Below, one piece after another: positions 550-6,552 of a stretch of 64,000 nt of DNA. Both the position numbers and the translations under genes were made by a program. This DNA comes from Candidatus Allochristensenella caecavium (GTDB lineage Bacteria > Bacillota > Clostridia > Christensenellales > QAND01): contig CAJFOS010000002.1 of assembly GCA_904397865.1 (NCBI GenBank), forward strand, positions 62,001-126,000. The letters run 5' to 3'. The notes under the pieces are model-generated. The model did not search any database. It saw nothing but the letters and a program-made list of their open reading frames with translations, and was not told the DNA's origin. The first letter of the stretch is position 1. Every line of letters starts with the position of its first letter.

Positions 550-735
550 TTAGCAGCCGCAGCCAACGCTACGATTGCTGCCCCAGCCGCCGCAGCAGCT
601 CAAAATCAGGAGCAACGGAATAATCTCTTCGCAGCCACAACCGCCGTCACGGCCGCCGAAGAAGCCGCCATTTCCGCCGCAGCAGAACAGAAGTAGGATT
701 AACAGCCAGCAAGAATCGTTTCCAAAGCAGTTCAT
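550..735 (-). CDS. Small Cys/Gly-rich hydrophobic protein of unknown function
   Basis: Encodes 61 residues with a good AAGGGGG ribosome binding site before the ATG. The peptide has a hydrophobic block (SCWLLILLLFCCGG), a Gly-Gly-Phe-rich middle with GGCGC, a second hydrophobic block (IIPLLLILSCCGG) and a C-terminal VGCGC. Nine cysteines occur in 61 residues. I do not recognise a named family. Short Cys/Gly-rich proteins with hydrophobic halves are common among sporulation-associated or membrane-associated peptides in Firmicutes, but that link is inference. A bidirectional terminator lies just downstream, which supports it being a real transcription unit. Confidence 0.6.
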   Translation of the reverse strand: MNCFGNDSCWLLILLLFCCGGNGGFFGGRDGGCGCEEIIPLLLILSCCGGWGSNRSVGCGC

Positions 736-4896: not shown

Positions 4897-5910
4897 TCAA
4901 TCCATCGTTTTTCCGAAAAATTCGACTGTTTTTTTCACTTTTTTCATCAGTGCATCGAATTGCGCCGGTGTCAGCGACTGCGCGCCATCGGACAGCGCCG
5001 TTTCCGGTGAATTGTGCACTTCAATCATCAATCCGTCCGCACCTGCTGCAATGGCTGCCATCGACAGCGATTCGACCATCCAGCTCATACCGGCCGCGTG
5101 GCTTGGGTCAATCACAATCGGCAGATGCGTCAGCCGGCGCAACATCGGCACCGCAGAAATATCCAGCGTGTTGCGCATGGATGTTTCAAACGTGCGGATG
5201 CCACGTTCACAAAGAATGACGTTCTCGTTCCCGCCTGCCATGATGTATTCCGCGCTCATCAGTAGTTCTTCCAGCGTGTTGGACAAACCGCGTTTGAGCA
5301 ACACCGTTTTTTTCGTATGCCCCAATTCTTTGAGCAGTTCAAAGTTCTGCATATTGCGGGCGCCCACCTGCACCACATCCACATCTTCAAACAAAGGGAT
5401 ATGCGTAGTGTTCATCAATTCTGTGACAATGGGCAGGCCCGTTGCTTTGCGTGCTTTACGCAGCAATTCCAGCCCATCAGCCCGCAGACCCTGGAACGAG
5501 TATGGCGAGGTACGCGGCTTGAATGCGCCGCCGCGCAGCAGCCCTGCTCCGGAAGCTTTGACCGCCCGGGCCACCTCGATAATCTGTGCTTCGCTTTCCA
5601 CGCTGCACGGTCCGGCAATCACCTGAAAATGACCGCCGCCTATCTTGCGGCCCGCTATTTCAATCACCGTATCCGCTGGATGGAATGTCCGATTGGCTTT
5701 TTTGTACGGTTCCTGAATCCGCCGCACTTGGTCCACTACTTCATTGGCCTGAATGTTTTCGATATCCACCTGCGTCGTATCGCCGACCAGCCCCAGCAGG
5801 CGTGTCTGTACACCCTGGGATTCATGGATTTCCAACCCTTTTGCTTTCAGCTGTTCAATCAACTGATTGACTTTTTGTTCATTGGCGTTCTTCTTCAGGA
5901 TAATAATCAT
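4897..5910 (-). CDS. aroF: 3-deoxy-7-phosphoheptulonate (DAHP) synthase with N-terminal regulatory domain
   Basis: First enzyme of the shikimate pathway: condenses phosphoenolpyruvate and erythrose 4-phosphate in the cytoplasm. The 337-residue protein has an N-terminal ferredoxin-like domain (about residues 1-70) and a TIM barrel with AGPCSVES, KPRTSPYSFQG and DPSHAAG. This is the type I-beta arrangement seen in Thermotoga and Bacillus, where the extra N-terminal domain allows feedback inhibition. The start at 5910 has AGGA seven bases upstream; an in-frame extension to 5967 has no ribosome binding site and runs towards the leader terminator. Expression is very likely set by the Tyr/Phe leader peptide and attenuator just upstream. 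Confidence 0.95.
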   Translation of the reverse strand: MIIILKKNANEQKVNQLIEQLKAKGLEIHESQGVQTRLLGLVGDTTQVDIENIQANEVVDQVRRIQEPYKKANRTFHPADTVIEIAGRKIGGGHFQVIAGPCSVESEAQIIEVARAVKASGAGLLRGGAFKPRTSPYSFQGLRADGLELLRKARKATGLPIVTELMNTTHIPLFEDVDVVQVGARNMQNFELLKELGHTKKTVLLKRGLSNTLEELLMSAEYIMAGGNENVILCERGIRTFETSMRNTLDISAVPMLRRLTHLPIVIDPSHAAGMSWMVESLSMAAIAAGADGLMIEVHNSPETALSDGAQSLTPAQFDALMKKVKKTVEFFGKTMD

Positions 5911-5989: not shown

Positions 5990-6030
5990 AAAATAAAAAA
6001 GGCAGGTACTTTGCTACGAAAGTACCTGCC
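5990..6030 (-). terminator. Attenuator terminator in the aroF leader
   Basis: On the minus strand GGCAGGTACTTT pairs perfectly with AAAGTACCTGCC around a six-base loop and is followed by six T. It lies between the leader peptide stop and the aroF start, so it would stop transcription before aroF. Its 5' arm and loop (6013-6026) can instead pair with 6075-6088 inside the leader gene, which would prevent the terminator. Confidence 0.88.
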
Positions 6031-6050
6031 TCATTCATCGCGTCACTTGT

Positions 6051-6164
6051 TCAGCACAACGGTTCTTGAGAAACGGTCTTTTCATAGCAAACAAGGCCAT
6101 AGCCATAATAATAGCTAAAGCCAAACGCGTACAAATATGCATTTGTAAACGAACGATGTGCCAT
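6051..6164 (-). CDS. Tyr/Phe-rich leader peptide of aroF
   Basis: A 37-codon gene with an AAGGAG ribosome binding site ten bases before its ATG, placed about 25 bases after a consensus promoter. The peptide has Tyr at positions 10, 12, 18, 19, 20, 22 and 27 and Phe at 6, 14 and 16. This includes the core GFSYYYGYG. Codons 15-17 (6114-6122) can pair with codons 26-30 (6075-6088), and the latter can also pair with the terminator arm. This is the layout of classical ribosome-mediated attenuation: stalling at Tyr codons would free the antiterminator and allow aroF transcription. No T-box sequence is present. The mechanism is inferred from the sequence. Confidence 0.85.
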   Translation of the reverse strand: MAHRSFTNAYLYAFGFSYYYGYGLVCYEKTVSQEPLC

Positions 6165-6196
6165 TAAAGCCGTTCTCCTTTTTTGATGTTGCAATC

Positions 6197-6225
6197 AACA
6201 TACACTAAGCCGCTCCGGTTGTCAA
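6197..6225 (-). promoter_or_regulatory. Promoter of the aroF leader
   Basis: A perfect -35 TTGACA (6220-6225) is 17 bases from a -10 TATGTT (6197-6202). The predicted start is near 6190, leaving a short untranslated leader before the leader-peptide ribosome binding site. Confidence 0.8.
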
Positions 6226-6552
6226 GCCTTTTTTGAATAGACTACCCGAATTGATTGCCTGGTTCATGCATGGACAAACTTGCCATCATTCTTTGTTTTA
6301 TTGTTGGATTCTTCTTTTATAGGCTTTTTCTTTATCTCCGGTCACTAAAGTTGAGGCACATACTTCGGATGCTATACCCCCGCGGCAGTCTCACAGCAAC
6401 GGCATCGCCCATGTATTATAACACTTTATTAAACTAAATTGTAAGTGAATAAACTGTCTCCTTTCGCATCCCTTGCTTGCCATTATGTCGACTGGAAATC
6501 TTGTATCTTCTCTCCGACTCTCACGTTTCAAATCTGCTATATCTATTCTCAA
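6226..6552. other. Intergenic region without a convincing gene
   Basis: About 330 bases upstream of the aroF promoter and downstream of the SEC-C gene terminator. An open frame at 6255-6437 lacks a ribosome binding site and has no recognisable protein features. I see no RNA gene or repeat here. Confidence 0.5.

Follow-up and report, generated by a model that had tools for sequence, protein, structure and literature searches.

Leader-peptide attenuation is usually associated with Proteobacteria and Actinobacteria, and control by T-boxes and TRAP with Firmicutes. In the pheA and pheST attenuators of γ-proteobacteria (Phe_leader type), the leader is rich in the regulated amino acid and an antiterminator competes with a terminator. 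Ordinary attenuation inside Firmicutes is represented by the His leader peptides before hisZ and hisS in bacilli (PMC2965389). For aroF, an old proposal of attenuation in E. coli is cited in PMC2659441, and the aroF gene of Corynebacterium glutamicum (cg1129) has a short Phe-Tyr-Phe leader, which the passage concerning it in PMC4046766 presents as a predicted attenuator. The uORFC-13-1 motif of Acholeplasma aroF consists of an upstream ORF (uORF) with one or more Phe codons, a promoter and a terminator, and attenuation was proposed for it (PMC8632094). With these predictions on record for Corynebacterium and Acholeplasma, Tyr/Phe or Phe leaders of aroF are not new outside Clostridia. The original prediction for the locus described here knew of no Tyr/Phe leader of aroF in this group, and our search of the open-licence literature, which may miss subscription work, likewise turned up no description of an aroF leader in Clostridia. 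As far as searched, the kind of attenuator is known, but a broad Clostridial family of it seems undescribed.

The locus was analyzed in a stretch of 64,000 nucleotides (hereafter, the window), and all of its elements lie on the minus strand. The gene presumed to be regulated (4897–5910, ATG at 5910) encodes an AroF-type DAHP synthase, as indicated by matches to PRK08673 and TIGR01361, with an N-terminal ferredoxin-like DAHP_snth_FXD domain. A σ70-type promoter, TTGACA-17-TATGTT (6197–6225), is present and agrees with the consensus at 10 of 12 positions. It is followed by the Shine-Dalgarno (SD) sequence AAGGAG (6176–6181) and by the leader ORF (6052–6165; ATG at 6165, stop codon TGA at 6054–6052), which specifies the peptide MAHRSFTNAYLYAFGFSYYYGYGLVCYEKTVSQEPLC. 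As originally described, this frame has 37 codons, of which seven are Tyr (codons 10, 12, 18, 19, 20, 22 and 27) and three are Phe (codons 6, 14 and 16). An intrinsic terminator with a 6-nt loop and U6 (5995–6031) begins 20 nt after the leader stop codon and is located approximately 85 nt 5′ of the aroF start; its perfect stem (6031–6019/6012–6000) measures 13 bp, one more than first reported, and the run of six T occupies 6000–5995. Thus, an SD-led short ORF with a cluster of end-product codons lies upstream of a biosynthetic gene, and an intrinsic terminator separates the two. The region 5′ of the leader promoter (about 6270–6440) contains a TATAAT-like box near 6420 and, after it, non-coding sequence. 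A small RNA was considered at 6270–6415, but its structure was no stronger than that of shuffled sequences and it had no Rfam match at gathering score.

The window leader shares with those of pheA and pheST its richness in regulated residues and its competing antiterminator and terminator, but differs from them in the gene (DAHP synthase), in the use of both Tyr and Phe codons, in the phylum and in the lack of a match to an Rfam model. It resembles the cg1129 leader as a short aromatic leader before a DAHP synthase gene; however, the actinobacterial description, in the passage concerned, names three consecutive aromatic codons and gives no co-variation (PMC4046766), whereas the window leader has ten aromatic codons. 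With uORFC-13-1 it has in common the uORF, promoter and terminator before aroF, but the 24 representatives of that motif are confined to Acholeplasma and environmental sequences, and Tyr is not named for it. The hisZ and hisS leaders of bacilli use histidine and precede other genes. Neither the window nor any of 40 aroF loci matched an existing Rfam family at gathering score, although uORFC-13-1 may be outside Rfam 15.

To place the leader among relatives, 194 aroF upstream regions were collected from order-mates of the window's genome, with no congener among them, and from named genomes. A strict test, which combined an SD sequence, a short ORF and an aromatic score, was passed by 54.6% of these regions; the corresponding figures were 3.0% for dinucleotide shuffles and 0.5% for reverse complements. 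With a looser test, 75% of the regions passed, against a background of approximately 9%. In the SD-led ORFs, Tyr was enriched 3.8-fold and Phe 2.2-fold over shuffles, whereas His, Trp (0.37) and Asp were depleted, and when the upstream region of the window itself was shuffled 5000 times with dinucleotides preserved, its Tyr/Phe score was never attained. Given the excess of real regions over both controls in the strict test, the aromatic-rich leader arrangement upstream of aroF is not due to chance. A hand count places leaders in 22 of the order's 33 families, and Marasmitruncus massiliensis, Angelakisella massiliensis, Aminicella lysinilytica and Emergencia are examples of named organisms with one, so that conserved Tyr/Phe frames do exist in related aroF leaders; intrinsic terminators between leader ORF and structural gene were also found in relatives. 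No leader was detectable for about one quarter to one half of the sampled aroF genes. Having its own promoter, SD sequence and terminator, and specifying an aromatic and hydrophobic peptide, the short ORF might instead encode a real small protein, such as a membrane micropeptide, with a terminator that merely ends its own transcript. We consider this very improbable, because relatives conserve the Tyr/Phe clusters only and vary in length and in the rest of the sequence, because the peptide has no Pfam match and because pairing links the leader RNA to the terminator that belongs to it, as described below. A substitution test in one subgroup counted 29 synonymous and 29 non-synonymous changes, which by itself is no proof of translation.

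The antiterminator of the window is predicted to form between segment 2 (6080–6091, UUUGCUAUGAAA) and segment 3 (6010–6021), which pair at 12 of 12 positions, one G-U pair included; a related motif pairs in the loci L034, L036, L043 and L015. The pairing of 6075–6088 with 6013–6026 at 12 of 14 positions, as originally given, is correct, and the register 6091–6080 with 6021–6010 is the cleaner one. Because segment 3 runs from the end of the terminator 5′ arm through the loop and 3 nt into the 3′ arm, antiterminator and terminator are mutually exclusive. Nascent-RNA folding was performed on an RNA ending at 6010, with the rest of the terminator 3′ arm still absent, and the leading edge of the ribosome was assumed to lie 12 nt beyond the A-site codon. 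Under these conditions, the antiterminator formed with a probability of approximately 0.9 when the ribosome stalled no later than codon 20 (Tyr20) and of 0.00 from codon 21 on; segment 2 is thus left accessible only by stalls at or before Tyr20. The control codons Tyr18–Tyr20, which with Tyr22 form the YYYGY cluster at 6100–6114, are well placed, since the ribosome reaches segment 2 from codon 21. By computation, then, a stall at the control codons frees an antiterminator that excludes the terminator. The nascent fold without a ribosome also permits the antiterminator. When the whole terminator is present, equilibrium folds prefer it for most stall sites; the switch must therefore be kinetic and dependent on the order of transcription, on which known attenuators likewise depend. 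When the complete leader is folded in the absence of a ribosome, the terminator forms and segment 2 is predicted by the minimum free energy fold to pair with the SD/start region (6177–6159), which we designate as the predicted segment 1. The original prediction had placed segment 1 at 6114–6122 and had it masked by a ribosome stalled at Tyr codons 18–22; pairing of 6114–6122 was recovered in none of the folds, and this segment 1 is not supported. Compared with shuffled leaders, the window antiterminator taken singly is unexceptional, being equalled by 17% of shuffles.

Comparison across relatives linked the leader to its terminator. For 123 distinct leaders/loci, the duplex of a leader with its own terminator had a mean energy of −13.7 kcal/mol, as compared with −9.8 kcal/mol for permuted partners (z = −18), and a shuffled-leader control agreed (Wilcoxon p ~3e-20). 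In 95% of 99 relatives, more of the antiterminator was freed by a Tyr/Phe stall than by a ribosome located on the stop codon. Among seven sequences from the window's own subfamily, the cognate pairing was matched or beaten in 107 of 5040 permutations. Another subfamily, 17 sequences defined by the motif AGCUUUACC...GGUAAGGCU, was aligned after the variable linker between leader and terminator had been cut out, and the structures were picked by eye. In this subfamily one strand of a hairpin, the segment 1:2 protector, is made up of the Tyr/Phe codons; over this hairpin and the terminator, two-sided changes were found at nine of 17 pairs (for example, one pair changing from A-U to G-C in seven of the 17 sequences), 96% of cells were paired and the covariation score was attained by none of 500 shuffles. 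The subfamily antiterminator, the alignment of which is blurred by indels, was 74.7% paired, whereas no slid control exceeded 48%, and it had fewer two-sided changes. The GGUAAGGCU subfamily thus has a clear protector hairpin with co-variation, whereas the window has only the predicted SD/start pairing. A whole-leader alignment of 34 diverse sequences (MAFFT/RNAalifold) gave no consensus fold because linkers vary. As a whole, leader and own terminator co-vary across relatives and one subfamily shows compensatory changes, as the original prediction would lead one to expect. The same data bear on the possibility that the leader acts on translation, with its ORF governing ribosome reinitiation or access at aroF rather than transcription. 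One potential transcript does span leader and aroF, and reinitiation from leaders has been proposed in bacteria (PMC4833913); nevertheless, this is highly unlikely here, given that the element finishes with a perfect intrinsic terminator and U6 some way ahead of aroF and that leader and terminator are linked by co-variation.

From the enriched leaders, the co-varying pairing and the Tyr20 switch in the folds, we conclude that the window element is very probably a ribosome-mediated transcription attenuator that places aroF under the control of the supply of charged tRNA-Tyr and tRNA-Phe. Translation of the leader frame, stalling of the ribosome and the direction of the response are inferred as follows. 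When both tRNAs are charged and ample, the ribosome would pass codon 21 and cover segment 2 (6091–6080), upon which the terminator (6031–6000) would form and transcription would end before aroF. When Tyr (or Phe) is scarce, the ribosome would stall at or before Tyr18–Tyr20, and the free segment 2 would pair with 6021–6010 ahead of the synthesis of the terminator 3′ arm, so that the polymerase would continue into aroF.

T-box leaders (RF00230) similarly control a terminator, in their case by sensing uncharged tRNA, and the original prediction noted that Firmicutes more often use them, or TRAP, for aromatic genes. An Rfam search identified 12 T-boxes in the present genome; upstream of aroF, the RF00230 covariance model found no match, while the same search detected T-boxes elsewhere. 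Although T-boxes are the usual Firmicute device, a translation-free RNA sensor (T-box, TRAP-like element or riboswitch) driving the terminator, with the Tyr/Phe codons incidental, is extremely unlikely in view of the strong residue-specific enrichment within an SD-led frame and of the lack of any Rfam family at gathering score in the window or the 40 aroF loci. At the leader, the search for a T-box, riboswitch or other Rfam element gave sub-threshold hits only, and these were attributed to chance. T-boxes and a putative leader-peptide attenuator of aroF thus coexist in one genome, with no genome-wide replacement of one by the other.

In three relatives, trpE is preceded by a T-box. The whole genome of the source organism (G000) has no match to anthranilate synthase TrpE (PF04715), and since this match is missing the organism is probably auxotrophic for Trp, as most members of its order would be, in which 65 of 81 genomes had none. 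Among genomes with leaders, a Trp codon was present in the aromatic cluster of the leader in eight of 17 trpE-positive but only one of 52 trpE-negative genomes (p = 2e-5; lists entered by hand, and related genomes are not independent); by family, the counts were approximately four of nine with trpE and one of 18 without (p = 0.03). Trp-containing leaders (e.g. STRFFSMFSFNGLYRWSLFAC and FFFGWFYFSRFF) were observed at L012, L014, L019, L006, L254, L255, L249 and L164, mostly in genomes with trpE, and several precede a second DAHP synthase copy. The window's genome has two DAHP synthases, one alone with the leader and the other in an aro operon on contig 5 (pheA-aroB-aroC-aroE/aroK-aroQ-DAHP synthase-aroA; L224:2211–9372), the genes of which were named from ORF reading, with profile checks for DAHP synthase and pheA only. 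No leader was found in the 131 nt before pheA in this operon, and its shikimate dehydrogenase and kinase appear to be fused (421-aa ORF). Many relatives have aroF and pheA on one strand, with aroF approximately 3.5–5 kb upstream, and this arrangement suggests that a whole shikimate-to-Phe operon follows the leader in those genomes. Elsewhere in the window, a 61-aa Gly/Cys-rich ORF (GGNGGFFGGRDGGCGC...; 550–735, minus strand) perhaps encodes a small coat-like protein.

In a tree of DAHP synthases, the window protein clustered with sequences from Marasmitruncus (the nearest), Ruthenibacterium, Anaerofilum and Gemmiger; support was weak for the exact sister (0.45) and 0.89–0.97 for the wider group. 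The end of the window leader resembles the endings of leaders in this group (GLVCYE/GLFCCE), and gene and leader may have been transferred jointly. Faecalibacterium and Gemmiger belong to the same DAHP synthase group, and their aroF genes had no leader on inspection. A close aroF with a Tyr/Phe-rich short ORF upstream was also observed in metagenome-assembled genomes (MAGs) labelled as non-Firmicutes, namely Treponema (L066, L095), Lentisphaerae/Oligosphaeraceae/Victivallales (L077, L081, L094, L112) and Thermoguttaceae (L079), and would represent either horizontal transfer or mis-binned contigs. It is conceivable, although we would lean slightly against it, that the aroF leaders make up a Clostridial regulatory family, ancient or mobile, that travels with aroF between phyla and whose codons read out the end products of the shikimate pathway, with Tyr and Phe only where Trp synthesis was lost and Trp added where trpE is present.

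More than 100 natural variants are now offered for testing the co-evolution of leader codons and RNA folds. Leader attenuation appears to be a common control of the entry into aromatic amino acid synthesis across gut Clostridia that also use T-boxes, which bears on the supply of Tyr and Phe by gut bacteria.
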